In this document: positions 27,839 to 42,497 of the stretch, piece by piece | Numbering within the stretch: position 1 is the first letter of the stretch | Layout: the number at the start of each line of letters is the position of its first letter | Assembly: GCA_017308135.1 (NCBI GenBank) | Contig: JAFKFM010000007.1 | Span: 1-64,000 of the forward strand | Direction of reading: 5' to 3' | Origin: Alphaproteobacteria bacterium | GTDB taxonomy: Bacteria; Pseudomonadota; Alphaproteobacteria; CACIAM-22H2 | Length of the DNA: 64,000 nt | The notes under the pieces: generated by a model | Told to the model about the DNA's origin: nothing | The model's input: the letters and a program-made list of their open reading frames with translations, nothing else | The model's database searches: none | Translations under genes and position numbers: made by a program

Positions 27839-28861
27839 GTGAAACTCAAAGTCCTGGCACTTGCCGCTTTCGCCGCGGTCGGCCTCTCGGCCGCCGCCGC
27901 AGACGCCCAGCAAAAGACGACGCTCCGCTTTTCGATCGGCGCACCCGATTCGATGGGCGGCGAAATCCTGGGCATGAAGGCGCTCAAGGAATACGTCGAG
28001 TTCCGCAGCAGCGGGCAGCTCGAGATCCGTCTGTTCTTCAACACGCTGGGCGGCTCGTTGCAGCTGACCGAGCAGGTGAAGAACGGCACGCTGGAAATGG
28101 CGCTGACCGACGATTCGGTGCTCGGCTCCTTCCATAAGCCGATGCAAGCCTTCCAGATCCCGTATCTGTTCCCGTCCTCGCCGGTCGCGTGGGAATTCAT
28201 GACCAGCCCGTTCATGAAGGAAATGACCGAGGATATGCGCAAGGCGACGGGTATCCGCACGCTGGCGCTTTCGGAGAACGGGTTCCGCAACCTGACCAAC
28301 AACGTGCGCGAAATCAAAGGCCCGGACGATCTGAAGGGCCTGAAGATGCGCACGATGCAAAGCCAGGTCTACGTGAACTTCATGCGCTCGATGGGCGCAT
28401 CGGCCACGCCGATCGCGTGGCCCGAACTGGTGCCGGCGCTCAAGCAGAACGTCGTCGACGGTCAGGAAAACGCCGCCGCGACGATCTGGGACGGCAAGCT
28501 GTTCGAAGTGCAGAAGTTCATGAGCGTGAACGAGCATATCTTCGGCATGCATCTGATCATCATCAACGACCGCGTGTTCAACGGCCTGTCGGCGGACCAC
28601 AAGCAGATCCTGATGGACGGTGCGCGCATGCACGCCGAAGTCGCCAACTCGCGCAAGGCGATGGACTCGCTGCAGGCGATCGACAAGATCCGCCAGCAGG
28701 GCACCAAGGTCTACGTGAACACGCCGACCGAGAAGGAAGCGTTCCGCAAGGCGTCGCAAGGTGCGGTGATCGAGTTCATCGCCTCGCAGGCCGGCAAGGA
28801 CGTCGTCGACAAGCTGCTCGTGGCGGTCGAAGACTCCAAGCGCCGCGTCTACGGTCAGTAA
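27839..28861 (+). CDS. TRAP transporter substrate-binding protein DctP
   Basis: A 340-residue periplasmic receptor with a Sec signal (LKVLALAAFAAVGLSAAAADAQQ). It shows the DctP pattern of FRNLTNNVREIKGPDDLKGLKMR, in which the Arg binds the ligand's carboxylate, and PELVPALKQNVVDGQENAAATIW. The start is a GTG with GAGGGAGGAAA immediately upstream. It delivers an organic acid, probably a hydroxy- or keto-acid, to the DctQ/DctM pair that follows. Confidence 0.94.
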   Translation: MKLKVLALAAFAAVGLSAAAADAQQKTTLRFSIGAPDSMGGEILGMKALKEYVEFRSSGQLEIRLFFNTLGGSLQLTEQVKNGTLEMALTDDSVLGSFHKPMQAFQIPYLFPSSPVAWEFMTSPFMKEMTEDMRKATGIRTLALSENGFRNLTNNVREIKGPDDLKGLKMRTMQSQVYVNFMRSMGASATPIAWPELVPALKQNVVDGQENAAATIWDGKLFEVQKFMSVNEHIFGMHLIIINDRVFNGLSADHKQILMDGARMHAEVANSRKAMDSLQAIDKIRQQGTKVYVNTPTEKEAFRKASQGAVIEFIASQAGKDVVDKLLVAVEDSKRRVYGQ

Positions 28862-28880
28862 CGTATAGGGCGCGGAAAAC

Positions 28881-29363
28881 ATGAACGCGATCCGCGCATT
28901 CGCGAAAGGCCTGTCGGCGGCGTGCGATCACGCCGCCGGCTGGCTGCTCGCGATTCTCGTCGTGCTCAACGGCGTCAGCGTCTATATGCGCTACGTCGCG
29001 GTCGACTCGATCTCGTGGAGCGAGGAGGCGATCCGCTACATCGCGATCTGGATCACCTTCCTCGGCTCCGTCGCCGCGAGCTGGGCGGACGAGCATCTCG
29101 ACATGAACCTGTTCGGCGAGGTCGAGAACGCCACGTTTCAGGCCTGGCATAAATCGCTGCTGCACTTGCTGAACGTCGTCTTCTGCGTCGTGCTGACCTG
29201 GCAGGGCCTGATCTATTGCCAGCTCAACGGCGCGCAAACCGCACCCACGACCGGCCTGCCGATGATCTGGATCTATTCCTCGATCGCGTTCGGCGGGGCG
29301 GCGCTCACCTTCATCCATCTCGTCAAGGCGGCGGATTCCCTGCTGTCGAGGCCGCGCGCGTGA
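28881..29363 (+). CDS. TRAP transporter small permease DctQ
   Basis: A 160-residue membrane protein with four segments. The family pattern is visible in the first helices (AGWLLAILVVLNGVSVYMRYV, then SWSEEAIRYIAIWITFLGS). Its stop overlaps the GTG start of DctM, so the two are translated together. Confidence 0.91.
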   Translation: MNAIRAFAKGLSAACDHAAGWLLAILVVLNGVSVYMRYVAVDSISWSEEAIRYIAIWITFLGSVAASWADEHLDMNLFGEVENATFQAWHKSLLHLLNVVFCVVLTWQGLIYCQLNGAQTAPTTGLPMIWIYSSIAFGGAALTFIHLVKAADSLLSRPRA

Positions 29364-30646
29364 CCACGATTCTCATCCTTCTGACCGCGACCTTGTTCGT
29401 CGGCATGCCGGTCGCCTTCGCGTTCGGCCTCTCCTCGATCTTCGCGTTGATGTACGACGGCTACGGGCTGCTCAACGTCGCCTCGCGCATGTTCGCCGGG
29501 CTCGACAGTTTCGTCCTGCTCGCGGCCCCGTTCTATATCCTGGCCGGCGAGATCATGAATCGCGGCGGCATCTCGGAACGATTGATCGAGCTGTCGCGCA
29601 TTCTGGTCGGCCGTATCAAGGGCGGGACCGCCTACGCCGCGATCGTCGCGGCGGTGATGTTCTCCGGCATTTCGGGCACGGCGGTCGCGGATATCGCCGC
29701 ACTCGGGCAGATCTTCATCAACGCGATGCCCAAGGAAGGCTATTCGAAGGCCTTCGCGGCGGCGCTGATCACGGCGGCGTCGGTGATCGGGCCGATCATT
29801 CCGCCGTCGGTCATCATGGTGCTTTACGCCGCCGTTTCCGACATTTCGGTGCTGAACCTGTTCCTCGCCGGCATCGTGCCGGGCCTGCTGCTGGGCTTGG
29901 CCTGCGGTGGCGTCGTGTTCTGGAAGGGCATCAAAGGCGAATTGCCCGTGTCGCAGATCGACGTGCCGCGCGAACATTACGGCCGCGTCGCCCGCGAAGG
30001 CACGATCGTGCTGAGCCTGCCCGCCTTCATCGTGTTTGGCACCACGTCGGGCGTGTTCACCGCGACGGAAGCGGGCGGCATCGCGGTGATCTACGCGATC
30101 ATCCTGTCGACTTTCGTGTTCCGCTCGCTGGATCGCAAAGGCGCGATGCTGGCGTTGCGCAACGCCGCGCGCTTGACCGCGTCGCTGTTCCTGTTGATCG
30201 CGACGGTGGAAATCGTCAACTACGTGCTGATCATGGCCGGGATCGGCGAATGGACGGCGGGCCTCGCCACAGCTTTCGCCGGCAATCCGCAGCTTTTCAT
30301 GATCGTCTGCGTTCTGGTGTTCCTGCTGATCGGCTTGGCGCTGGATGCAGGCCCCGCGTTGCTGCTGCTCGCGCCGTTCCTGCTGCCGGTCACGCGCCAG
30401 ATGGGCATCGACGACATCCATTTCTCGATGGTGATGATCGTCTGCTGCACGCTGGGGCTGATCTCGCCGCCCGTGGGCATCTGCCTGTTCGTCGCGTGCA
30501 AGATCGGGAACCTGACCCTGCGCCAGCTGTGGCACGAATTGCGCTGGTTCTTCTACGCGCAGATCGGCGCCATCATTGTGATGGTCTATTTCCCGATCCT
30601 GTCGACCGGCCTGCCGCGACTGGTCCGCGGCTACGGGGGCGGCTAG
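29360..30646 (+). CDS. TRAP transporter large permease DctM
   Basis: A 428-residue permease with about 12 segments, the sodium-coupled channel of the TRAP system. Typical stretches are LAAPFYILAGEIMNRGGISERLIEL, MFSGISGTAVADIAALGQI and SVIGPIIPPSVIMVLYA. The start is the GTG at 29360, inside the DctQ stop (GTGA). It ends the GntR-linked operon. Its stop shares four bases (CTAG) with the stop of the convergent ABC permease. Confidence 0.95.
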   Translation: MTTILILLTATLFVGMPVAFAFGLSSIFALMYDGYGLLNVASRMFAGLDSFVLLAAPFYILAGEIMNRGGISERLIELSRILVGRIKGGTAYAAIVAAVMFSGISGTAVADIAALGQIFINAMPKEGYSKAFAAALITAASVIGPIIPPSVIMVLYAAVSDISVLNLFLAGIVPGLLLGLACGGVVFWKGIKGELPVSQIDVPREHYGRVAREGTIVLSLPAFIVFGTTSGVFTATEAGGIAVIYAIILSTFVFRSLDRKGAMLALRNAARLTASLFLLIATVEIVNYVLIMAGIGEWTAGLATAFAGNPQLFMIVCVLVFLLIGLALDAGPALLLLAPFLLPVTRQMGIDDIHFSMVMIVCCTLGLISPPVGICLFVACKIGNLTLRQLWHELRWFFYAQIGAIIVMVYFPILSTGLPRLVRGYGGG

Positions 30647-31476
30647 CCCTTAACCGCCCCGGCCGTCAGCGCGTTGACGAGGTGGCGTTCGAGGAACGCG
30701 AACATCACCATCACCGGAACGGCGGCGATCATCGCGGCGGCCATCAGTTCGTTCCATTGGACCCGGTATTCGCCGACCATGTTGGCGATGCCGACCGACA
30801 GTACGAACATCGACGGATCGGTCGTCAGCACCAGCGCCCAGACATAGGCGTTCCACGAGATCAGGAACGTGAACAGCGCGACCGCGACCAGACCGGGCCG
30901 CGCCAGCGGCAAAATCACGCGCCAGAGCGTGGTGATGCGCGAAGCGCCATCGACGATCGCGGCCTCGTCGATTTCCAGCGGGATCGAGCGGAAGAAGCCG
31001 ATCAGCATCCACACGCTGAACGGCAGCGCGAACGAGCTATAGGCCAGGATCAGCGACAGATGGCTGTTGATCAGCCCCAATTCCGACATCAGGCGGAAAT
31101 AGGGAATGATCAGCAGCGTCTCGGGCAGCATTTTCGTGAACAGCAGGAACACGATCAACGCGCCCGCCCCCTTGATGTGGAAGCGCGTGAAGCCGTAGGC
31201 CGCAAAGGTCGCCAGCGCCACCGACAGCAGCGTCGATCCCAGCGATACGATCAGCGAATTGAGGAAGTAGCGCGCGAAGGGACGTTCGACCAGCAGCGTG
31301 CGGAACGCCTCGAGGCTCCAATTCGCCGAATAGAAGGCCGGCGGCGACAGGAACACTTCGCTTTGCGGCTTCAACGCGGTGTTGAGCATCCAATAGAACG
31401 GGAAGACCGTCACCACGGCCGCGATCAGGATCGCGATCCACAGACCCGCTTGGCCCAAGGGGGAGGTGCGGTTCAT
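30643..31476 (-). CDS. Carbohydrate ABC transporter permease (MalG type)
   Basis: A 277-residue membrane subunit with six segments. The EAA loop reads LEIDEAAIVDGASRITTLW and the tail is NALTAGAVKG, typical of MalG proteins. The start at 31476 overlaps the other permease by 4 bases. It is the last gene of the operon at 34833-30643. Confidence 0.94.
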   Translation of the reverse strand: MNRTSPLGQAGLWIAILIAAVVTVFPFYWMLNTALKPQSEVFLSPPAFYSANWSLEAFRTLLVERPFARYFLNSLIVSLGSTLLSVALATFAAYGFTRFHIKGAGALIVFLLFTKMLPETLLIIPYFRLMSELGLINSHLSLILAYSSFALPFSVWMLIGFFRSIPLEIDEAAIVDGASRITTLWRVILPLARPGLVAVALFTFLISWNAYVWALVLTTDPSMFVLSVGIANMVGEYRVQWNELMAAAMIAAVPVMVMFAFLERHLVNALTAGAVKG

Positions 31477-32405
31477 CGGCGGTCGTCCTCTTGGCCCACG
31501 CGGGTGATGCGCAGATACATCGCGGCGAAGATCAGCACCATCAGCAGCAGCAACACGCCGATCGCCGCCGCCTCGCCGAAGCGATTGGCGCGGAACGCGG
31601 TGTTGTAGAGCAAGGCGGGCAGCACTTCGGTCGCCCCCGCCGGGCCGCCGCCGGTCATGATGCCGATAATGTCGTAGTGGCGGACGACATTGATGATGTC
31701 GAGCGTCGAGGCGACGACCAGCAGATATTTGAGGTTCGGCAGCGTGATGAAACGGAATTTCTGCCAGGTCGTGGCGCCGTCGATCTCGGCGGCTTCGTAT
31801 TGCTCGGCCGGGATCGTCTGTAGGCCCGCCAATGTCAGCAGCATGATGAAGGGCACGCCGCGCCAGATCTCGACCGTCGTCACGGCCGCGAAGGCGGTGC
31901 CCGGCGTGCCGAGCCAGGCGACGGGGGCGGAAATGAGTCCGGCCGATTGCAGAATGTAGTTGATCACGCCGAATTGCGGTTCGAGCAGCCACAGCCAAAT
32001 CGTGGCACCGACGGCCGCCGCGACCATCCAGGGTGTCAGGAACAGCACGCGCAACGCGGTGCGCGCGAAGGTGATCTTGTTGAGGGCCAGCGCCAGCAGC
32101 AGGCCGAGCACCACATGGGCGACGACCGAAATCGACACGAAGCCGAGCGAAACGCGCAGCGAATGCCAGAACGCCTCGTCCTCCAGTACGCGGACGTAAT
32201 TCGCGAAGCCGACGAAGGTTGAATTCAAACCACGGATACGCTGGAAGCTGGTCCAGAAGGCGTGGAACAGCGGCAGCACGATGACCGCCGCCAGGAACAG
32301 CAGCGTGGGCGCCAGGAACAGATAGCCGTGCCAGCGTTCGCGCGCGAGACCCCGCCCGGTCCAAGCCCGGGCGGGGATGTTCGTCGTGGTGGTCGTGTTC
32401 GACAT
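31473..32405 (-). CDS. Carbohydrate ABC transporter permease (MalF type)
   Basis: A 310-residue membrane subunit. The EAA loop reads AEQYEAAEIDGATTWQKF, preceded by six hydrophobic segments starting with LFLAPTLLFLAAVIVLPLFHAF. The ATG shares one base with the stop of the binding-protein gene (TAATG). As in the first importer of this window, no ATPase gene is present. Confidence 0.94.
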   Translation of the reverse strand: MSNTTTTTNIPARAWTGRGLARERWHGYLFLAPTLLFLAAVIVLPLFHAFWTSFQRIRGLNSTFVGFANYVRVLEDEAFWHSLRVSLGFVSISVVAHVVLGLLLALALNKITFARTALRVLFLTPWMVAAAVGATIWLWLLEPQFGVINYILQSAGLISAPVAWLGTPGTAFAAVTTVEIWRGVPFIMLLTLAGLQTIPAEQYEAAEIDGATTWQKFRFITLPNLKYLLVVASTLDIINVVRHYDIIGIMTGGGPAGATEVLPALLYNTAFRANRFGEAAAIGVLLLLMVLIFAAMYLRITRVGQEDDRR

Positions 32406-33661
32406 TACTGACGCAGCTTGCGCGTCACGCGAACGTCGAGATCGCGGAAGATCTCGTCGGTGCGCGCGGGCTCCAGCAGCGCCTTCTGCACCGCGTCGAC
32501 GATATCGTTGACGGCGATGTCGGCCCAGGCCGGATGCGGCAGCGGGTAGGAGCGCGCATTGGCGCCGATGCGCACGAACTCCGCCAGCATCGGATCGGCC
32601 TTCAACTCGGGCTCGTTTACCAGATCGCGGCGCAGCGGCATCCAGTTCGCCTTCACGGCGCGCTGGATCGCCCATTTCTTATCCATGTCGAACTTGATGA
32701 AGCGCCACGCCTGTTCGGGATAGCGGCAGCTTTGCGAGATCGAATGCGCCGACACGCTGGCGAGCGTGGGCGCGTTGGGGATATTCGCGGGCATCGGGGC
32801 CACGAACATCTTGCCTTCGATCGCGGGGTTGTCGCCGATCACTTTGGCGATCGACCAATAGGCGTTGCGCATCGTGGCGATCTTGCCTTGCGCGAACAGC
32901 ACGGTCTGTTCGAGGTAGTTGGTCGTCGTGGGGGCGGGCGACGCCACACCTTCCTTGGTGAACAGGCCCAGATAGAACTTGATCGCTTCCAGCGATTTCG
33001 GGTTCTTGGCGAAGGTCGCCTCGGTCATGTCGGCGTTGAACGCTTCGCCGCCATTGCCCCAAATCCAGGTCAGCAACACGCGCGTCGTCGTGTCGGTCTT
33101 GCCGCCCAGAATGCTGGTCGCCCAGCGATCCGGCCCGGTCAGCGCCTTCGCCCAGCGCAGATATTCGTCCCAGGTCTTGGGCGGGTTCTTGGGATCGAGC
33201 CCGGCCTTCTCGACCAGTTCGCGGTTATAGACTTCGGCGTAGGTGCCGCCCCAATTCGGCAGGCCGTAGAGCTTGCCTTCCCACTTCGCGGCCGACAGCA
33301 TTTCCGGCGCCCAGGCGTCGCGGAACGAGGCGGGCTCCTTCGCCCACAAATCGTCCATCGGGCGCAGATAGCCTTCGGCGGCGGCGGTCGTGAGGTCGAC
33401 GGCGACGACGCAGGGCGCTTGGCGCGCCTGGGCCGAGGCGACGAATTTCGTCCAATGGTCGCGGCGCGCGACCAGGATCGGTTCGACCTTCACGTCCGGA
33501 TTCGCGGCTTCGAACTCGGCGATCGTCTGTTTCCAGATCGGCTCGTATTGCGATTCGGTCAGGTTCGGCGTCTGCCATTGGATGGTGACGCGGTTCTGGG
33601 CGGCGGCGGGGCCGGCCAGTGCGATCACCGCGACGGCGGCGAGCAGGGCATTACGCGACAT
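32405..33661 (-). CDS. Sugar-binding protein of an ABC importer
   Basis: A 418-residue family 1 periplasmic binding protein with a Sec signal (LLAAVAVIALAGPAAAQ). The mature part starts RVTIQWQTPNLTESQYEPIWKQ. The ATG at 33661 is chosen because it opens the signal peptide and has AGGAGG upstream; an in-frame ATG 48 bases upstream is less likely. It sits between an enolase-superfamily sugar-acid enzyme and the two permeases, so a sugar acid or related sugar is the likely ligand. Confidence 0.92.
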   Translation of the reverse strand: MSRNALLAAVAVIALAGPAAAQNRVTIQWQTPNLTESQYEPIWKQTIAEFEAANPDVKVEPILVARRDHWTKFVASAQARQAPCVVAVDLTTAAAEGYLRPMDDLWAKEPASFRDAWAPEMLSAAKWEGKLYGLPNWGGTYAEVYNRELVEKAGLDPKNPPKTWDEYLRWAKALTGPDRWATSILGGKTDTTTRVLLTWIWGNGGEAFNADMTEATFAKNPKSLEAIKFYLGLFTKEGVASPAPTTTNYLEQTVLFAQGKIATMRNAYWSIAKVIGDNPAIEGKMFVAPMPANIPNAPTLASVSAHSISQSCRYPEQAWRFIKFDMDKKWAIQRAVKANWMPLRRDLVNEPELKADPMLAEFVRIGANARSYPLPHPAWADIAVNDIVDAVQKALLEPARTDEIFRDLDVRVTRKLRQ

Positions 33662-33699
33662 GGGGTTCCTCCTTTTATGAGTTGTTTGGTTATTGTCGT

Positions 33700-34833
33700 T
33701 CAGGACCACAGCGCGCCGCCGCGCTCGACGCGCGACTGCGGCTGGTAGGGCTTGGACTTCATGATTTCGAGATCGGGCTCGATGCCCCAGCCGGGGCCTT
33801 GCGGCAGGATGAAATGGCCCTTCTCGAACTTCACCGCCGGGGCGGCCGAGCGATCGCGGAATTCGCGCTGCGGCTCCATCTGCTCCAGGATGTAGAAGTT
33901 CGGGATCGCGGCGGCCAAATGCATCGACGCCACCGTGCAGATCGGCCCGCCGGGATTATGCGGGGCGACGGGAATGTAATAGGTGTCGGCGAAGCTCGCG
34001 ATGCGGCGCACTTCGGTGATGCCGCCCGCATGCATCAGATCGGGCTGGATGATCTTGACGCCGCCGCCTTCGATCAATTCGCGATATTCGTAGCGCGACA
34101 GAAGCCGTTCGCCCGTCGCGATGGGCGTCGAGATTTCGCGCTGCAAGCGCACCATCACCGCCGCGTTCTCGAAGGGCACGGGTTCTTCGAACCAGCCCGG
34201 CCGATAGGGTGCGAAGGCGCGATCGAGCATCACGGCCGTGCGGGGGCTGAGCGACTCGCTGCATTCGATGAAGATGTCGACGTCGGGGCCGGCCCCTTCG
34301 CGCGCGGCGGCCATCACCTCCGTCGCGCGGCGGATGGCGCCGCTTTCGTCGGCCTTCAGCGCCTCATGCGTCAGCGGCGAGAATTTGAACCCGGTGAAGC
34401 CGCGGCGCACGGCTTCTTTGGCGCCGGCATGGGCTTCGTCGGGCGTCATTTTCGCGTTCAGCCAGTGGCTGGCATAGACGCGCAACGAATTGCGATGCGC
34501 GCCGCCCAGCAGGCGATGCACGGGCACGCCCAGGCGCTTGCCTTCGAGATCCCACAAGGCGAGATCGATACCCGCCAGCGCCGTGCTGAACACGGCACCC
34601 GCGCGCCAACGCCAGGCGTTGTAAAGACGGTGCCAGTGGCGCTCGGGGCCGGCGGGGTCCTGACCGATCAGATGCGGCGCGAATTCGCGGATCGCGGACT
34701 CGACCGAGTCCAGCGCGCCATGCAGCGAGGCTTCGCCCCAGCCGACCAGACCTTCGTCCGTTTCGATCCGGACGAACATCCAATTGCACCAATCCACCCA
34801 ATGCTTATGGGTCTCGATCTTCGTGATTTTCAT
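33700..34833 (-). CDS. Enolase-superfamily sugar-acid dehydratase (galactonate dehydratase-like)
   Basis: A 377-residue mandelate racemase/muconate lactonizing family enzyme. Active-site positions are K150 in GFKFSPL, metal ligands E190 (IFIEC), E216 (WFEEP) and E242 (ATGE), and H292 in VAPHNPGG. The overall pattern and the APHNPGGPI block resemble D-galactonate dehydratase. However, that enzyme's DFHGR motif is replaced by IECSES, so Asp becomes Glu and the second His is missing. Substrate is therefore probably a related sugar acid. It opens the operon for the ABC importer and is divergent from LacI. Confidence 0.87.
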   Translation of the reverse strand: MKITKIETHKHWVDWCNWMFVRIETDEGLVGWGEASLHGALDSVESAIREFAPHLIGQDPAGPERHWHRLYNAWRWRAGAVFSTALAGIDLALWDLEGKRLGVPVHRLLGGAHRNSLRVYASHWLNAKMTPDEAHAGAKEAVRRGFTGFKFSPLTHEALKADESGAIRRATEVMAAAREGAGPDVDIFIECSESLSPRTAVMLDRAFAPYRPGWFEEPVPFENAAVMVRLQREISTPIATGERLLSRYEYRELIEGGGVKIIQPDLMHAGGITEVRRIASFADTYYIPVAPHNPGGPICTVASMHLAAAIPNFYILEQMEPQREFRDRSAAPAVKFEKGHFILPQGPGWGIEPDLEIMKSKPYQPQSRVERGGALWS

Positions 34834-34887
34834 AGGCGTTGGGCCGTTTCTCCCGAATTCCGGCGCTCGCGACCGTCTTTGGCCTTC

Positions 34888-34905
34888 GATTGAACCGGTT
34901 CAATC
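34888..34905. promoter_or_regulatory. Perfect 18-bp LacI-type operator
   Basis: GATTGAACCGGTTCAATC is a complete palindrome with the central CG typical of LacI-family operators. It lies between the divergent lacI gene (34922) and the sugar-acid enzyme/ABC operon (34833), directly upstream of an extended -10 motif. The neighbouring LacI protein is the obvious ligand. Confidence 0.85.
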
Positions 34906-34906
34906 A

Positions 34907-34915
34907 TGTTATACT
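34907..34915 (+). promoter_or_regulatory. Extended -10 promoter of lacI
   Basis: TGTTATACT fits the extended -10 pattern TGnTATAAT. Its end is 6 bases before the ATG at 34922, so transcription should start at or next to the start codon, giving a leaderless message. No Shine-Dalgarno sequence is present in the six bases between them. Confidence 0.6.
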
Positions 34916-34921
34916 CCGGCC

Positions 34922-35941
34922 ATGGACGATGCAAGGCATGATTCGGGGGGGCGGCCGACGATCCGCGACGTGGCGCGCCGGGCGGGCGTGTCGGTCGGGA
35001 CGGTGTCGAACGTGCTCAACCGGCGCATCGCGGTCAGCGACCGTCGCCGGGCGGCGGTGGAGGAAGCCATCGCCGCTTTGGGCTTCGTGCCCAACCGCAA
35101 CGCGCAAAGCCTGCGCGGCCGGGCGTGGCGCGTGGTCGGGCTGGTCGTCCACGACACAAAAAGCGCCTACTTCGCCGCGATGCTCGACCGCTTCGAAACG
35201 ATGGGCGGCGATCTCGGCTACGAGGTGATGCAGGTCCTCAATCGCGGCGATTCGGAAATCGAGCTTCGCCGCACGCGCGCGCTGATCGAACGTCAGGTCG
35301 ACGGGTTGATCCTGGTGCCGACCGCGCATCCAGCGGCGACGTTCGACCTGATCGCCGATTCGGGCGTGCCGGCGGTGATGATCGATCGCGGCATGGACGA
35401 TCCGCGTTTCGATTACGTCACGATGGACAACGATGGCGCCATGACCGAACTCGTCCACGCGCTCGCCGCGCGCGGGCGCAAGGATGTGCGCTTCGTCGTG
35501 CGCTGGCCCGAACTCGTCACCACGCGCCAGCGTATGGCGGCCTTCGCGCGCGAAGGGGCGAAAGCGGGGATTGCGGCGCAAACGCTGGTACGCGATCCCG
35601 ACGACGCGATTTTCGCGGGCCAGATCCGCGATTTGCTGGGCGGGGATAAGCGCCCGGACACGATCGTGGCGTCGAACTCGAATATCGCGGAAGCGTTGCT
35701 GCTCACGCTGTCGTCGCTGGGCGTGAAAATCCCCGACGATCTTTCCGTCGTCGCCTTCGACGAACCCGATTGGGCCGAACTCACCACGCCGCCTTTGTCG
35801 GTCGTGCGCCACCCGATCGACCTGATCGCCCAAAGCGCTTGGGACATTCTGATCGACCGGATCGAAAACGGCACGCCGCCCGGGCGGCGGGTAATGCACC
35901 CCGCGCGCGTCGTGCTGCGCGGCTCGGTGAAGTCGCTTTAG
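34922..35941 (+). CDS. LacI family transcriptional regulator
   Basis: A 339-residue repressor with helix-turn-helix TIRDVARRAGVSVGTVSNVLN (residues 13-33), hinge LGFVPNRNAQSLRGR, and a sensor domain ending in VVAFDEPDWAELTTPPLSVVRHP. The FDEPDW block is common in regulators of sugar acid or pentose genes. The ATG at 34922 puts the helix-turn-helix at the normal position. It is divergent from the sugar-acid/ABC operon and should bind the palindrome at 34888-34905, controlling both directions. Confidence 0.93.
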   Translation: MDDARHDSGGRPTIRDVARRAGVSVGTVSNVLNRRIAVSDRRRAAVEEAIAALGFVPNRNAQSLRGRAWRVVGLVVHDTKSAYFAAMLDRFETMGGDLGYEVMQVLNRGDSEIELRRTRALIERQVDGLILVPTAHPAATFDLIADSGVPAVMIDRGMDDPRFDYVTMDNDGAMTELVHALAARGRKDVRFVVRWPELVTTRQRMAAFAREGAKAGIAAQTLVRDPDDAIFAGQIRDLLGGDKRPDTIVASNSNIAEALLLTLSSLGVKIPDDLSVVAFDEPDWAELTTPPLSVVRHPIDLIAQSAWDILIDRIENGTPPGRRVMHPARVVLRGSVKSL

Positions 35942-35942
35942 T

Positions 35943-37085
35943 TCACCAAGCCTCGGCCATCATCGCGCGATACTCGTCCGGCGTGGCGATGCGCGGGTTG
36001 GTGGCGTGGCAATGGTCCTTCATCGCTTTGCCCACGGCTTCCTCGACGAAGCCCTTGTCCACGCCCATCGCGCCCAGACCCGACGGCATGCCGAGATCGC
36101 GGTTGAGCTGCGCGATCGCCTGATCGACCGAGGCGCCCGGTGCGAGGCCCAGGGCGATCCGCAGCCGCGCGTATTTGTCTTCGGCGATGGCGGTCTCGGC
36201 ACTTTCGTTGAAGCGCAGTACGGCGGGCAGCAGCACGGCGTTCAACGTGCCGTGATGCAGCGACTTGGCACGATAACTGCCAAGTGCATGCGACAGCGAA
36301 TGAACGGCCCCGAGACCTTTTTGGAACCCCATCGCCCCCTGCATCGACGCGCTGAGCATTTGCTTGCGCGCCTCGCGGTTCTTGCCGTCGGTCACGGCGG
36401 CGCGAATCCATTTGATGCCGCGCGCCAACCCGTCCAGCGCGATCCCGTCCGCCGGCGGGTTGAAGGCCGGAGCCAAGAACACTTCGATGCAATGCGCGAT
36501 CGCGTCCATGCCGGTCGCGGCCGTGAGACCGGCGGGCAAGGCGAGGGTGAGTTCCGGGTCGAGCACGGCGGCGCGCGGGACCAGGAACCAGGAATGGAAG
36601 CCGACCTTGCGCCCGTCGTTGAGGATGACGATGGCGCCGCGCGCGACTTCGCTGCCCGTGCCCGCCGTGGTCGGAATGGCGATCAGCGGCGCGCAATTCT
36701 TGGTGATCTTCGGGGCGCCGCCGTCGATCGTGCAGTATTGCGCGAGCGGGGCGGGGTGCCCCGCCAGGATCGCGACCCCTTTGGCGAGGTCGATCGACGA
36801 GCCGCCGCCGACCGCAATGATCCCGTCGGCCTTATGGTCGCGATAGAGCGCGGCCGCTTTGTCCACGGCTGCCTCCGTCGGGTTGCCCGGCGTTTCGTCG
36901 AACACCGCCAAGGGCAGCTTGCCCTCGATCGCGGCCAAGGCTTGCGCGGCGACACCCGCCGCGATCACGCCCTTGTCGGTCACGACCAGCGGGCGCGAAA
37001 TCCCGTGCGCGGCGCAAAGCTCGCCCAGCGCCTTCGCGGCGCCGAAGTCGAAATGGATGTCGGTCACGTATTTGATCAGCGGCAT
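35943..37085 (-). CDS. Iron-containing alcohol dehydrogenase
   Basis: A 380-residue group III alcohol dehydrogenase. The NAD-binding motif is GGGSSIDLAKG near residue 93, followed by PTTAGTGSEV. Metal ligands are the Asp and His of TGMDAIAHCIE and the two His of GAVHSLSHALG. Relatives use 1,3-propanediol, 4-hydroxybutyrate, lactaldehyde or maleylacetate, so the substrate is open. It is divergent from a GntR regulator, and one base separates its stop from the convergent LacI stop. Confidence 0.92.
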   Translation of the reverse strand: MPLIKYVTDIHFDFGAAKALGELCAAHGISRPLVVTDKGVIAAGVAAQALAAIEGKLPLAVFDETPGNPTEAAVDKAAALYRDHKADGIIAVGGGSSIDLAKGVAILAGHPAPLAQYCTIDGGAPKITKNCAPLIAIPTTAGTGSEVARGAIVILNDGRKVGFHSWFLVPRAAVLDPELTLALPAGLTAATGMDAIAHCIEVFLAPAFNPPADGIALDGLARGIKWIRAAVTDGKNREARKQMLSASMQGAMGFQKGLGAVHSLSHALGSYRAKSLHHGTLNAVLLPAVLRFNESAETAIAEDKYARLRIALGLAPGASVDQAIAQLNRDLGMPSGLGAMGVDKGFVEEAVGKAMKDHCHATNPRIATPDEYRAMMAEAW

Positions 37086-37194
37086 GGTTTTCTCCCTGGC
37101 GATTTTTCTACCAGGGCCGCGCGCGCTAGGGTAGCGTTCAAGTCATGCGGGAAATATTCAATGTAATTTACGCCGACTCGCTGTGGGGTGTTCG

Positions 37195-38022
37195 ATGAGC
37201 CGGCGGGGGTCCGCCGGCGCCGTAGCGTCGGTCAAAACGCGAACCGGCGAGGCGATGACGCTGGATCGCGCGTCGCCGATTCCGCTTTACGTCCAGGTTC
37301 GCAACCGGCTGCTGGCGATGGTCGGCGGGTGGAACGACCCGGAAAAACGCTTTTATTCCGACGACGAGTTGACCGCCATGTTCGACGTCAGCCGCGCCAC
37401 GGTGCGCGAAGCGTTGACGGAATTGGTCGAGGCGGGCGTGCTGCGCCGCCGGCGCGGGCACGGCACGATCGTCAGCCTGCGCAAAGTCGCGGAGAAGCTC
37501 GGCGTGGGGTCCCATATCGGCAGCCAATGGGATTCGGGCGACATGCCGGTCGATACGGCGCTGCTGGCGTTCGAGCGGATCGCAGCACCGGCGGAAACGG
37601 CACGCGCCCTTGGTATCGTCGCGGAAACCGAGGTGCTTTTCATCAAGCGCCTGCGCACCATGCCGATCGCGCCTGTGTCGATCGATTGGCGCTATTTGCC
37701 GCTTTGGGCGGCCGACGGAATCGGCCGCGAGAACGCGGTCGATCCGCTGATCAATCTGATTTGGCGGCGGATCGATCTCGATCACAGCGATCTGACGATC
37801 GAGGCCGCGTTGTCGGGACCGGAGGAGATGGAATTGCTGCATCTGCCGGCGAAGTCGCCGATCCTGGTGCGACATCTCGTCTATTACGACCGTCAGGGGC
37901 GCGCGGCGATGGCGGGCAAGTCGATCCATCGCGCCGATTTGATGCGCTACAGCGTGCGCGTCGATCAATCGCGCGACGGCGTGGGCGTGGCGCGCGGCCG
38001 CACGATGATCCGCAGCCGTTAG
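37195..38022 (+). CDS. GntR family regulator (UTRA domain)
   Basis: A regulator of about 275 residues. The winged helix spans PIPLYVQVRNRLLAMVGG to VSRATVREALTELVEAGVL, and a UTRA-like domain follows (VLFIKRLRTMPIAPVSIDWRYLP). The ATG at 37195 is chosen; a GTG at 37183 and an ATG at 37255, preceded by GGCGAGGCG, are also possible. It is divergent from the iron-type alcohol dehydrogenase, its likely target. Its stop overlaps that of the convergent phosphatidylcholine synthase gene by 4 bases. Confidence 0.87.
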   Translation: MSRRGSAGAVASVKTRTGEAMTLDRASPIPLYVQVRNRLLAMVGGWNDPEKRFYSDDELTAMFDVSRATVREALTELVEAGVLRRRRGHGTIVSLRKVAEKLGVGSHIGSQWDSGDMPVDTALLAFERIAAPAETARALGIVAETEVLFIKRLRTMPIAPVSIDWRYLPLWAADGIGRENAVDPLINLIWRRIDLDHSDLTIEAALSGPEEMELLHLPAKSPILVRHLVYYDRQGRAAMAGKSIHRADLMRYSVRVDQSRDGVGVARGRTMIRSR

Positions 38023-38744
38023 TTTCCGCGCACCGAACGCCAGAGCGACAGGCCGACGAGCCAGGCGCTCGCCGCCATCCAGGTGGTCAGGACGATCGGG
38101 TTCACGGCGGGCGCGAACCACAACAGCCACGCCGCCCCGAACACCCACACGCCGCTGGCCGTCAGCGTCAACGCGCGATAATCGCGCACGCGCAAGGGAT
38201 GGATCGACTTCACCTTGGTGAAGCTGAACGCGCCCAGCACCGCGACCGCGATCAGGTTGAACCAGATCGGCGTGCCCAGCACGTAGATATAAAGCGCCAC
38301 GATGTTCCAGATCGCCGGGAAGCCGACGAAGTAATTGTCCGTCGTCTTCAGATCGAGATTGGCGAAGATGTAGAGCGAGGAAAACAGGATCCAGCCCGCC
38401 GCGGCCGAAGCGAGCCAGCCATCGCCCAGATATTCGAACTGCCAGAGCAGCACGGCGGGCACGACGACATAGGTGAGATAATCGACCACGAGGTCGAGCA
38501 GCGCGCCATCGAAACGCGGCAGACGTTCGGCGACGTCGAGTTTGCGCGCGAAGGGCCCGTCGATCCCGTCGACGATGAGCGCGAGACCCAGCCACAGCAG
38601 CGCCTCGCGCGGATTGCCTTCGATGACCGCGATCAGCGCCAGCAATCCGATGACCGCGCCCGACGCCGTCAGCGCATGGACCATCCAAGCAGCACTCTTG
38701 CGCCGGACTTCGACGATCTTCTCGGTGACGTCCTCGCGTTGCAT
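38019..38744 (-). CDS. pcs: Phosphatidylcholine synthase
   Basis: A 241-residue inner-membrane CDP-alcohol phosphotransferase that makes phosphatidylcholine from CDP-diacylglycerol and choline. The signature Asp-rich motif is DGIDGPFARKLDV, then RFDGALLDLVVDYLTYVVVPA, the form found in bacterial Pcs. About eight hydrophobic segments are seen. The ATG at 38744 avoids overlap with the upstream 3-hydroxybutyrate dehydrogenase; an ATG at 38765 would give 7 more residues. Pcs is typical of alpha- and some gammaproteobacteria. Confidence 0.93.
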   Translation of the reverse strand: MQREDVTEKIVEVRRKSAAWMVHALTASGAVIGLLALIAVIEGNPREALLWLGLALIVDGIDGPFARKLDVAERLPRFDGALLDLVVDYLTYVVVPAVLLWQFEYLGDGWLASAAAGWILFSSLYIFANLDLKTTDNYFVGFPAIWNIVALYIYVLGTPIWFNLIAVAVLGAFSFTKVKSIHPLRVRDYRALTLTASGVWVFGAAWLLWFAPAVNPIVLTTWMAASAWLVGLSLWRSVRGN

Positions 38745-38749
38745 CGGGA

Positions 38750-39532
38750 TCACTGCGCGGTCCACCCGCCGTCGATCGAGAAATTGCTGCCGCGAATCTG
38801 GTCGGCCGCGGGCGAGCAGAGGAACGCGGCGAGGCCGCCGATCTGTTCGGGCGTGGCGAATTCCTTCGACGGCTGCTTTTCGGATAGCAACTCGTCTTTC
38901 GCGGCCGCACCCGAAATGCCTTTGCGTTCGGCCAGCGCATCGATCTGCTTTTGCACCAGCGGCGTCAAAACCCAGCCCGGGCAGATCGTGTTGGCGGTGA
39001 TGGGCAGCGTCGCCGTTTCCAGCGCCACGACTTTCGTGAGGCCCACCAGCCCGTGCTTGGCCGCGACGTAAGCCGATTTACCCGCCGACGCGACGAGCCC
39101 ATGCGCCGATGCGATGTTGATGATGCGGCCCCAGCCGCGCTTCTTCATATGCGGCAGTGCTGCGCGCATCGCCTGGAAGCAACTTGTCAGGTTGATCTGG
39201 ATGACGCGATCCCAGGCGTCGAGCGGGAACTCGTCGACGGTCGCGACATGCTGGATGCCGGCATTGTTGACCAGAATATCGACCGCGCCGAATTCCTTCA
39301 CGCAAGCCGCGATCAACGCTTCCACGTCGGCGGGTTTCGACATATCGGCGGCGGAATAGCCGGTCTTGACGCCCAGCGTTTCGACCTCGCGGCGGACCTT
39401 GGCGATCGTCTCGCCGTCGCCGAAGCCGTTGAGCATGATGTTGGCGCCCTGCGCCGCCAGCGCTTTGGCGATGCCAAGCCCGATGCCGCTGGTCGAGCCG
39501 GTGACGAGGGCGGTTCTGCCTTTCAACGACAT
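38750..39532 (-). CDS. bdhA: 3-hydroxybutyrate dehydrogenase
   Basis: A 260-residue SDR that interconverts D-3-hydroxybutyrate and acetoacetate in polyhydroxybutyrate metabolism. The cofactor motif is TGSTSGIGLGIAKAL, and the active site is in NIASAHGLVAS and SAYVAAKHG. The substrate-loop signature LLSEKQPSKEFATPEQIG is characteristic of bacterial BdhA. It lies 5 bases upstream of pcs on the same strand, so the two are probably co-transcribed, although they act in different pathways. Confidence 0.93.
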   Translation of the reverse strand: MSLKGRTALVTGSTSGIGLGIAKALAAQGANIMLNGFGDGETIAKVRREVETLGVKTGYSAADMSKPADVEALIAACVKEFGAVDILVNNAGIQHVATVDEFPLDAWDRVIQINLTSCFQAMRAALPHMKKRGWGRIINIASAHGLVASAGKSAYVAAKHGLVGLTKVVALETATLPITANTICPGWVLTPLVQKQIDALAERKGISGAAAKDELLSEKQPSKEFATPEQIGGLAAFLCSPAADQIRGSNFSIDGGWTAQ

Positions 39533-39592
39533 GTCGTGCTCTCCGAATTTCAGGTCCTGTCCGGTTTTACCGCCGGAACGCCGTCGCCGCCG

Positions 39593-39775
39593 CTATTTTT
39601 TGAAAAAAGCGTCCGCCGCCGCCTTGTGGGAGCTCTTTTTGCCGATCTCGGCCTTGGCGCGGGCGATCTCGCCCTCCAGACGCGCTATATAGGCTTCGAG
39701 CTCCGCGACACCCCAACTGGACAAATCCTTGGGCTTGACCAATTTATGGCGCGGCTCGAGTTCGTCGAATTCCAT
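39593..39775 (-). CDS. DUF1192 family protein
   Basis: A 60-residue acidic-to-basic protein. The pattern LVKPKDLSSWGVAELEAYIARLEGEIARAKAEI matches the alphaproteobacterial DUF1192 family and forms a short amphipathic helix with no membrane segment. It is divergent from the quinone oxidoreductase gene with 29 bases between them. Function unknown. Confidence 0.88.
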   Translation of the reverse strand: MEFDELEPRHKLVKPKDLSSWGVAELEAYIARLEGEIARAKAEIGKKSSHKAAADAFFKK

Positions 39776-39804
39776 ATCCGTCCCCCGTGCGAGGTCGTCA
39801 TTTT

Positions 39805-40803
39805 ATGAGTCTCCCCAGCGTCATGGAAGCCGTCACGATGGCTGCCCCCGGCAAGCCGGAGGTGCTGGTGCCGGGCACGAAGCCCGTGCCCGTGCCGCAA
39901 GCCGACGAAGTGCTGATCGAAGTGGCCGCCGCCGGTGTCAACCGCCCCGATATTTTGCAGCGTTACGGCAAATATCCGCCGCCGCCGGGGGCGCCCGACA
40001 CGCTGGGGCTTGAAGTGGCGGGAACCGTCGTCGCGACGGCGCCGGACGTGACCTGGCCTAAAATCGGCGACAAGGTCTGCGCGCTGGTCGCGGGCGGGGG
40101 CTATGCCCAATATTGCACGGCGCCGGCGCTGCAATGTCTGCCGATCCCGAACGGTTTCTCGATGGTCGAAGCGGCGGCGGTGCCGGAGACCTTCTTCACC
40201 GTTTGGACCAACGTGTTCGAGCGCGGGCGCCTGGTCGCGGGCGAGACGTTCCTGTGCCATGGCGGTGCCTCGGGTATCGGCACCACGGCCGTGCAGCTCG
40301 CCAAGGCGTTCGGCGCCAAGGTGCTGGCGACGTGCGGCACGGCCGAGAAATGCGCGGCTGTGACGAAACTCGGCGCCGACCGCGCGATCAATTATCGCGA
40401 CGAGGATTACGCCGCCGTCGCCAAGGAATTCACCGGCGGCAACGGCGTCGATCTCATCCTCGATATGGTCGGCGGCGATTACATCGCGCGCAATATCGAC
40501 GCGGCGGCGGTGGAAGGCCGCATCGTGCAGATCGCATTCCTCAAATCGCCCAAGGCCGAATTGTCGTTCGACGCGATCATGCGCAAGCGTTTGACCTATA
40601 CGGGCTCCACCTTGCGCCCGCGCAGCGTGGCCCAGAAGGGCGCAATCGCCGCCGCCCTGCGCGCGAAGGTTTGGCCGTTGCTCGAGGCGGGTAAAGTGCG
40701 CCCGCTGATCCACGCGACCTTCCCGCTGGCGCAAGCGGCGCAGGCCCACGCGACGATGGAAGCCGATACGCATATCGGCAAGCTGGTGCTGACGGTTCGA
40801 TGA
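39805..40803 (+). CDS. NAD(P)H quinone oxidoreductase (PIG3/zeta-crystallin type)
   Basis: A 332-residue zinc-free medium-chain dehydrogenase. The NADPH site is FLCHGGASGIGTTAVQLAKAFGAKV, and the family signature AAGVNRPDILQRYGKYPPPPGAPDTLGLE lies near residue 45. The VPETFFTVWTNVF block is typical of the PIG3 (TP53I3) subgroup, which reduces quinones by one electron. The ATG at 39805 is chosen over a GTG 18 bases upstream. Its stop overlaps the next gene by ATGA. Confidence 0.93.
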   Translation: MSLPSVMEAVTMAAPGKPEVLVPGTKPVPVPQADEVLIEVAAAGVNRPDILQRYGKYPPPPGAPDTLGLEVAGTVVATAPDVTWPKIGDKVCALVAGGGYAQYCTAPALQCLPIPNGFSMVEAAAVPETFFTVWTNVFERGRLVAGETFLCHGGASGIGTTAVQLAKAFGAKVLATCGTAEKCAAVTKLGADRAINYRDEDYAAVAKEFTGGNGVDLILDMVGGDYIARNIDAAAVEGRIVQIAFLKSPKAELSFDAIMRKRLTYTGSTLRPRSVAQKGAIAAALRAKVWPLLEAGKVRPLIHATFPLAQAAQAHATMEADTHIGKLVLTVR

Positions 40804-42497
40804 CCGACGCCGAAAATCCGCCATCGCCCGAAGAATGGCCGCCCGAAGCGCTGATCGACGCCGGGCGCCAATTGCGCGCGATGGGGCGCGCGGCCGAAGC
40901 GCTGGCGGCGTTCGAGATCGCGTGCCGCAAGGCGCCGAACGAAGTCGCTTCGTGGTCGGGGGCGGCGCTGGCGAATTACGATCTCGCGCGCTATCACCTG
41001 GCCGCCGCCGCTTTCGAACGCGCGGTGGAACTCGCACCCGACGACGCCAATCTGTGGCGCAATCTCGGCCATGTGCGCTTGCTCGCCGCGTGGCCCGCAC
41101 CGGCCGCCGAAGCGTTGCAACGGGCCGTGGCGCTCGATCCCGGCAATCTCGGCGCATGGGACGATCTCGGCACCGCACTCACCGGCATCTGGGGCCGCGC
41201 CAAAGATGCGACCGCCGCCTATGATCGCGCTTTGACGCTCGATCCCGCGCGTATCGACCTCGCCTCGCGCCGCTTGGTCGCGCTCGCCTTCGACGAAGAT
41301 CTGCCGGCCGCCGATCTGTTCGCCGCGCATCGCGATTTCGGCGCGAAGGTCGAGAAACTCGCCGGGCCGGTGGACGCGAATTTCAAGAACGCGCGCGAAC
41401 CGGATCGCAAGCTGCGCGTCGGCTATCTCTCGTCCAATCTCTATTCGCATATCGCCTCGGCCGAGATGCGCACGGCGTTGCGGCGCCACGACCGCGCGCA
41501 CTTCGCCGTCCATGTCTACGCGACCGTGCCGGAGCGCGACGCGATCACCGACGAACTTCGCGGGCTCTCCGATTTCTGGACCGATGCGGGCGCGCTCGAC
41601 GACCGCGCCTTGGCCGCGAAGATCCGCGACGACGGCATCGATATCCTGGTCCACACGATGGGCCATTGGCAGCAGAACCGCCTGGGCGTGTTCGCGCGAA
41701 GGGCGGCGCCGATTCAGATCGAGTATCTCTGCCAATCGCCCGCAATCGGCATTTCGGCGTGCGACGCCTATCTCGCGGATCCGTGGGTGTCGGGCGACGG
41801 CGCGCTGGGCGCGATATCCGGCGAGCGCGTGATCGATCTGCCCGGCGGTTATTATTCGACCTCGTTCCTGCCGGAGATCGCGATCAAACCGCCGCCGCGC
41901 GCGCGGGGGCAGGCGCCGGTCGTGTTCGGCAGCTTCAATCGTGTGGCCAAAATCTCGCGCGGCACGGTGCGGCGCTGGGCGCGCGTACTGCGCGAACTAC
42001 CGCAAGCGCGTCTGCTGGTGAAAATCCCCGAACGGTTCGAGCGCGCGGAGGAAGCGCGCATGCGCGGCGAATGGGCCGCACTCGGTCTCGACGTATCGCG
42101 CGTTGAATTGCGCGGCCATGCCGAAGGCGGGGCCTATTGGGATGGCTTCGCGGACGTGGACGCGCTGCTCGATTGCGTGCCGTTCAATGGCGGGCGCACG
42201 ACGGGCTCGGCCGCCTGGATGGGCGTGCCGACGATTTCGGAGCGCGGGCTTCCGGTCTATGGGCGCCTGGCGTTCGGCATCATGTCGCGTTTGGGCCTCG
42301 GCGATCTGGTCGGCGCCGACGAGGACGGTTACGTCGCGGCGGCGGTGAAGCTCGCGCGCGATCCCGCAAAGCTCGACGATATCCGCCGGACCCTGCGCGA
42401 TCGATTCCGCGCCTCCACCCTATTCGAAAGCGATATCCATATTCGCGAAGTCGAGGCGGCGTATCGCCGCCTGTGGCGCGAATACTGCGGCGCTTAA
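40800..42497 (+). CDS. TPR and OGT/SPINDLY-like glycosyltransferase (GT41)
   Basis: A 565-residue cytoplasmic protein. Residues 15-150 form TPR repeats (AAAAFERAVELAPDDANLWRNLGHV, AEALQRAVALDPGNLGAWDDLG). Residues 195-560 are a GT41 catalytic part: RKLRVGYLSSNLYSHIASAEM, then IQIEYLCQSPAIGI, FGSFNRVAKISRGTV and LLDCVPFNGGRTTGSAAWMGVPTISERG. In eukaryotes this family adds GlcNAc or fucose to Ser/Thr; bacterial members glycosylate proteins such as flagellins and adhesins. The acceptor is unknown. It is translationally coupled to the PIG3-type reductase. Confidence 0.9.
   Translation: MTDAENPPSPEEWPPEALIDAGRQLRAMGRAAEALAAFEIACRKAPNEVASWSGAALANYDLARYHLAAAAFERAVELAPDDANLWRNLGHVRLLAAWPAPAAEALQRAVALDPGNLGAWDDLGTALTGIWGRAKDATAAYDRALTLDPARIDLASRRLVALAFDEDLPAADLFAAHRDFGAKVEKLAGPVDANFKNAREPDRKLRVGYLSSNLYSHIASAEMRTALRRHDRAHFAVHVYATVPERDAITDELRGLSDFWTDAGALDDRALAAKIRDDGIDILVHTMGHWQQNRLGVFARRAAPIQIEYLCQSPAIGISACDAYLADPWVSGDGALGAISGERVIDLPGGYYSTSFLPEIAIKPPPRARGQAPVVFGSFNRVAKISRGTVRRWARVLRELPQARLLVKIPERFERAEEARMRGEWAALGLDVSRVELRGHAEGGAYWDGFADVDALLDCVPFNGGRTTGSAAWMGVPTISERGLPVYGRLAFGIMSRLGLGDLVGADEDGYVAAAVKLARDPAKLDDIRRTLRDRFRASTLFESDIHIREVEAAYRRLWREYCGA

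Follow-up and report, generated by a model that had tools for sequence, protein, structure and literature searches.

A LacI-family repressor gene with a predicted leaderless start next to a conserved, probable operator in an alphaproteobacterium

Introduction

How is a repressor gene read when its promoter appears to run almost into its own start codon? The question is raised by lacI, which encodes a 339-residue LacI-family repressor (34922..35941, + strand) in the first 64,000 nucleotides of contig JAFKFM010000007.1 of an Alphaproteobacteria bacterium (assembly GCA_017308135.1); we refer to this whole stretch as the window. The protein has both the helix-turn-helix (HTH) domain and the sugar-binding domain of its family (PF00356 and PF13377, both above cut-off), and its gene is divergent from that for a 377-residue enolase-superfamily sugar-acid dehydratase (33700..34833, - strand; PF13378 and PF02746). 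An initial annotation had read the short region between the two as an operator abutting an extended -10 box, with a leaderless lacI message produced at a low and steady level and the divergent operon under the same operator. We consider it likely that three elements taken together, an operator bound by the encoded repressor, a leaderless lacI message and shared control of the divergent operon, account for this layout. The leaderless, autoregulated reading of lacI is well supported by comparison with related loci, if unproven.

A probable operator, a predicted -10 box and a start codon in one block

The region upstream of lacI consists of a perfect 18-bp palindrome, GATTGAACCGGTTCAATC (34888-34905; 9+9 bp with a central CG, no strand assigned), a single A (34906), the extended -10 box TGTTATACT (TG-T-TATACT; 34907-34915, + strand), the six bases CCGGCC and the ATG (34922-34924, + strand). 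The initial annotation, which put the palindrome one base before the box and the box six bases from the ATG, was correct in all its sequences, coordinates and spacings. The standard sigma-70 layout has six bases between the -10 hexamer and +1, so the predicted +1 falls on the A of the ATG. A -10 element ending about six nucleotides before the start codon is what is looked for in a leaderless gene, and here the order is TATACT-CCGGCC-ATG. The 3′ end of the palindrome lies 16 bp before the lacI ATG and the palindrome is 54 bp upstream of the dehydratase gene. It also has the form described for LacI autorepressors, an even palindrome of 16-22 nt with a central CG in the gene's own promoter region (PMC4052901).

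A bare palindrome of this length is not evidence in itself, and we rejected it as such: simulations averaged 1.2 perfect palindromes of 18 bp or longer per 64 kb, with at least one in 73 of 100 runs, the window holds one, and 400 kb of the source genome (20 stretches) holds nine. What is unlikely is its placement together with its conservation. By simple proportion, the chance of such a palindrome falling in the 88-bp gap between lacI and the dehydratase gene is about 0.002. With up to three mismatches allowed, the 18-mer GATTGAACCGGTTCAATC occurs at a single place in the window (chance mean 0.01) and, likewise, at a single place in the whole 5.2-Mb genome.

The comparison with relatives carries most of the argument. 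Searches at the level of the family covered 23 genomes, and those at the level of the order covered the same 23; a close lacI ortholog was found in the window genome and four others of its genus, five out of 11 genomes of which several are incomplete. (A further scan of contigs gave three loci; two of these, L032 and L033, share their contigs with L004 and L003, and each contig was counted once.) The repressors are 95% (L003), 94% (L004), 61% (L005) and 61% (L006) identical to that of the window, and in all five genomes the divergent neighbor is the same dehydratase gene (98, 98, 84 and 84% identical to the window's in the same order). The TTGAA...TTCAA core of the operator is kept in all five, with a center 25 bp before the ATG at three loci and 25.5 bp at two, and the alignment from the operator to the ATG is free of gaps. 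A -10-like hexamer ends exactly 6 nt before the ATG each time: TATACT in two genomes, TATGCT in one and TAAAAT in two, with four of the five matching TATAAT at 5/6 positions. The conserved spacing of operator, -10-like box and ATG, as well as the likely start codon and the lack of a Shine-Dalgarno sequence described below, can thus be read directly from the DNA. Across 385 genomes of the class (E up to 1e-58) the search gave one match beyond the window's own genome, L035, which is 43% identical, and TTGAA-N2-4-TTCAA was not found at L035, L007 or L008 (loci with 43-45% identity).

The layout is rare in the sequences examined for comparison. In a background set of 464 kb (the window plus 20 stretches, with 442 candidate ATGs and 354 genes from a rough caller), two of the 442 ATGs have a hexamer with at least a 5/6 match to TATAAT ending exactly 6 nt before them, and such hexamers average about 0.2% per position at distances of 0-60; none of those at 0-9 nt has the extending TG. 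The ATG of lacI itself is absent from these hits, probably since the caller took a longer frame. Among 63 LacI genes examined, a -10 hexamer (at least 5/6) stands 5-7 nt before the ATG in four of the five members of this lacI group versus one of the 58 others (18 paralogs from the same genome plus 40 hand-picked genus matches, with only ATG starts scored). On these counts we take the layout to be a conserved trait of this group, and reject the idea that LacI genes in general have it by habit.

The start codon and translation of lacI

The ATG at 34922 is very probably the true start of lacI, as the initial annotation had it, judging from its flanks in the five genomes. L005 and L006 have in-frame TAA codons 4 and 6 codons upstream, which makes this ATG the first possible start there, and the next in-frame start-type codon in the window, GTG17, already falls within the HTH DNA-binding domain. 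In the window the frame does stay open upstream as far as a TTG at 34784, and a protein of 385 residues starting there would place the promoter inside the gene; we regard this as very improbable, given that the same frame is closed just before the ATG in two relatives with 61% identity and that the extension would overlap both the dehydratase start and the operator.

The absence of a Shine-Dalgarno sequence between box and ATG, also noted initially, is borne out by weak pairing with the anti-Shine-Dalgarno tail: the 20 nt upstream of lacI give -1.7 kcal/mol in the window and the five genomes range from +1.5 to -3.3 kcal/mol, while the 25 nt upstream of the window dehydratase gene give -7.4 kcal/mol. 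All five genomes have a C immediately before the ATG. The lacI gene combines two marks expected of a leaderless gene: it lacks a Shine-Dalgarno sequence, and no alternative start codon looks usable, although in the window taken by itself the frame is open upstream to the TTG at 34784.

RNA folding lends the leaderless message mild support. Its first 50 nt are weakly folded, with 194 of 200 shuffled sequences folding at least as well, and the AUG is free in the minimum-energy fold, although its G is paired in the centroid fold; in the 91 nt of 34860-34950, a proxy for a leadered message, the AUG region lies in a stem in both folds.

A nearby promoter or one further upstream

The proposed promoter has only a weak -35-like element, TCGATT (34886..34891, + strand), which is separated from the -10 by an 18-bp spacer and overlaps the operator, although this pairing is present in all five genomes. 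With no good -35, the promoter would draw its strength from the -10 and, in the three genomes that have it, from the TG.

Several observations weigh against a promoter at this position or against the breadth of its conservation. The -35 matches at only 3/6 positions, and a standard sigma-70 scan requiring both hexamers found no promoter on either strand between 34700 and 35100. In L006 another, leadered promoter pair scores slightly above the proposed one (9.2 versus 9.0), in L005 the proposed -10 is equaled by a TATAAA that ends 8 nt before the ATG, and the L004 hexamer, TATGCT, matches at 4/6 positions only; the extending TG is found only in the three closest genomes. The operator arms of L005 and L006 are 3 nt apart rather than 4, so that their site is not an even palindrome. 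The five loci are essentially two lineages, and their conservation therefore amounts to few independent events. Finally, TATAMT-N5-7-ATG is not enriched genome-wide (14 sites versus 19 in a reversed control), and on these numbers we rejected a general excess of leaderless-type starts.

These points bear on an alternative in which the lacI promoter lies further upstream, the leader contains the operator, translation initiates by a route other than Shine-Dalgarno pairing and TATACT is incidental or a minor start. The lack of a strong -35, the weak alternative pairs upstream (including the one that ranks first in L006) and the genome-wide count all favor it. It is countered by the exact distance that the -10-like box keeps from the ATG in two diverged lineages, by the rarity of such a -10 among the other LacI genes examined and by the stem that the AUG region enters when 34860-34950 is folded as RNA. 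On balance we judge an upstream promoter unlikely, though far from negligible, and favor the leaderless start.

In the genome-wide counts, TATAMT-N12-14-ATG gives 13 sites versus 8, one of the 13 being the lacI -10 with an out-of-frame ATG. Frames of at least 200 residues follow 5 of the 14 sites at N5-7 and 4 of the 13 at N12-14; those five all have the 6-nt distance (5 of 8 sites at 6 nt, 0 of 6 at 5 or 7 nt), a concentration that is a hint only, and one of them (L091) sits inside a much longer open frame. Two genes of the same genome, of the GlnD type (L087) and the TPR/glycosyltransferase-41 type (L090), have TATAMT exactly 6 nt before their likely ATG starts and are further candidates for leaderless expression. 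An IclR-type regulator gene by Pfam (L094; also in the window genome, contig C10 near 123409, - strand) is preceded by the inverted repeat TTGTCG-N4-CGACAA, then TATACT and 6 nt before its ATG, a layout kept in a 96%-identical copy in genome G015 (L114), where the flanks are also largely conserved.

The probable operator and the protein predicted to bind it

For the leaderless start, the mechanism would run as follows. RNA polymerase would use the extended -10 box TGTTATACT and begin the lacI transcript on the A of the ATG, giving a message that has no leader, or just a few bases of one, and that is translated with no help from a Shine-Dalgarno sequence. The palindrome at 34888-34905 would be the operator of the LacI-type repressor encoded from 34922; it would span -34 to -17 of the lacI promoter, and a bound repressor dimer would exclude polymerase and thereby repress its own gene. 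The same operator most likely represses the divergent dehydratase-transporter operon as well, and a sugar acid, perhaps a galactonate-like one, would release the repressor. We infer the transcript start, the binding of the repressor, the control of both genes and the identity of the inducer from the arrangement of these elements.

Strong support for the palindrome as an operator, and for its tie to the dehydratase operon, comes from L005 and L006, where an exact inverted 17-nt copy of the operator, ATTGAAACGTTCAAATA, lies within dehydratase codons 6-11, 75 bp center to center from the intergenic site. This distance corresponds to roughly 7.1 helical turns (10.5 bp per turn), which makes DNA looping between the two operators of L005 and L006 plausible. 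The window dehydratase has different codons there (ATC GAG ACC CAT AAG CAT), and the window genome has a single operator. That one operator serves both divergent genes, as initially proposed, is likely and is backed by the second copy that two relatives carry within their dehydratase gene; for the window genome itself this control is extrapolated.

Could the palindrome instead be the site of some other regulator? At the motif that reads TVSR in most LacI proteins (PMC2978694), this repressor carries TVSN, so no published recognition rule covers it. In LacI proteins Arg20 goes with a G at operator position -6 (PMC2978694); this repressor has Asn at position 20 and its operator a T at -6 (in our own numbering), and a palindrome lacking that G is what is expected when Arg20 is replaced. 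The site is moreover an even palindrome with a CG center that adjoins a LacI gene and is conserved with it, and a related half-site, TTGAAATGTTTCAA, lies on both sides of a 45%-identical gene in Acidisoma. We thus find another regulator improbable and take the adjacent LacI-type protein as the likely ligand of the palindrome.

The Acidisoma locus (Acidisoma sp. L85, L034) has TTGAAATGTTTCAA both upstream and downstream of its lacI-type gene, at 2404 and 3557, and its repressor may control genes on both sides.

The divergent operon and its candidate promoter

The dehydratase gene is followed on the same strand by genes for an ABC solute-binding protein (32405..33664; PF01547) and two sugar-type ABC permeases (31473..32393 and 30643..31470; both PF00528), the starts of these three being picked by eye. 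The dehydratase is near galactonate dehydratase, with 306.6 bits against PRK14017, slightly below the cut-off of 311. No ABC ATPase was noticed by eye among the frames of 28000-42000, a region in which no dedicated search was made; an ATPase shared from elsewhere may serve this operon (30643-34833). Before the dehydratase ATG the sole Shine-Dalgarno-like stretch (GGGAG, within 34834-34860 on the - strand) sits 16 nt off, and a G-rich stretch lies at a similar distance in the other four genomes (both by eye). On the other side, a 4-hydroxybutyrate dehydrogenase gene (35943-37085, - strand; NF058672, 586 bits versus a cut-off of 500) converges on lacI, the two stop codons being 1 nt apart. The window has no Rfam or tRNA matches. 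In another genome (G007, contig C16; L080), the divergent partner of a 65%-identical dehydratase gene is a GntR/FCD-type regulator rather than a LacI-type one, and the intergenic region there has GTGATCAC-like repeats and no TTGAA...TTCAA site; the regulator has apparently been swapped.

By simple scoring, the best promoter pair on the minus strand of the window, an uncertain one, has a candidate -10, TATAAC (34908..34913), that overlaps the lacI -10 and a candidate -35, CTTGCA (34930..34935), within lacI codons 3-5, with a 16-bp spacer and a 3/6 match of the latter to TTGACA. TATACT (+) and TATAAC (-) overlap, and the starts predicted from them are separated by 21 bp in both the window and L003. 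For L005 and L006 the top-scoring pair is TTGCCT-17-TATATT or TATGCT, which is shifted 2 bp and gives a separation of about 23 bp; the spacings given as common for bidirectional promoters are 18, 10 and 23 bp (PMC12825309). The minus-strand -10 matches at only 4/6 positions in L004 and L006, and the L004 equivalent of the window pair ranks third. We put forward only tentatively, as the less probable state of affairs, that a single block of about 50 bp with a shared -10 region fires both the leaderless lacI and the dehydratase-transporter operon.

Discussion

Leaderless autoregulated repressor genes are already known as a kind, and lacI here is a new example that brings no new mechanism. Phage lambda cI, transcribed from PRM, is autoregulated; it belongs to a phage switch in which several operators serve both activation and repression, whereas the window genome has one operator. 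The cI message is named as leaderless (PMC9031893), a property that is predicted for lacI. In Corynebacterium glutamicum, crtR is also divergent from its target operon, autorepressed and reported to give a leaderless transcript (PMC5401885), but it encodes a MarR-type protein in another phylum, and its promoter motifs are hard to find, whereas an extended -10 is visible here. The bidirectional acrR/acrA promoter of Escherichia coli (PMC12825309) likewise sets an auto-repressor gene divergent from its target, with overlapping -10 boxes of the type that we propose; the sharing is only proposed for our locus, where two relatives have the minus-strand -10 displaced by 2 bp, and the word "leaderless" does not occur in the text of that paper. 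Literature searches in full text, judged by titles and abstract openings and with most subscription journals outside their reach, gave among the papers listed no obvious report of a leaderless LacI-family autorepressor.

Among the LacI regulators studied, 72% are autoregulated and most sites are even palindromes with a CG center (PMC4052901). The window locus shares with local regulators that have a divergent catabolic operon this autoregulation (here predicted) and the even 16-22-nt CG-centered palindrome. It differs from them in position: more than 75% of LacI sites lie 30-140 bp from the start codon and fewer than 1% in coding regions (PMC4052901), whereas the operator here ends 16 bp before lacI and the second site of L005 and L006 lies within a coding region.

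The part of the initial annotation that we would not retain is the level of expression. That a leaderless message means a low level is disfavored by Caulobacter, in which 375 leaderless mRNAs are reported to be translated with an efficiency similar to that of leadered ones (PMC4117421). A steady level is doubtful too, since an autorepressor released by an inducer would be expected to rise on induction.

If the -10 region is indeed shared, the operator would fall within the lacI promoter and also cover about -4 to +14 of the operon transcript, allowing one dimer to block both; two polymerases would compete for one site, the -35 of the operon would be embedded in lacI codons 3-5, and the extra operator of the sister species, 75 bp (about 7 helical turns) away, would add looping. 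Since the operator, the -10 and the ATG make up a single block, recognizable in the sequence and traceable across species, leaderless autoregulation in the LacI family becomes directly testable at this locus. Should the leaderless start and the shared promoter both prove true, the output of the repressor and that of its operon would be tied together by competition for one promoter.
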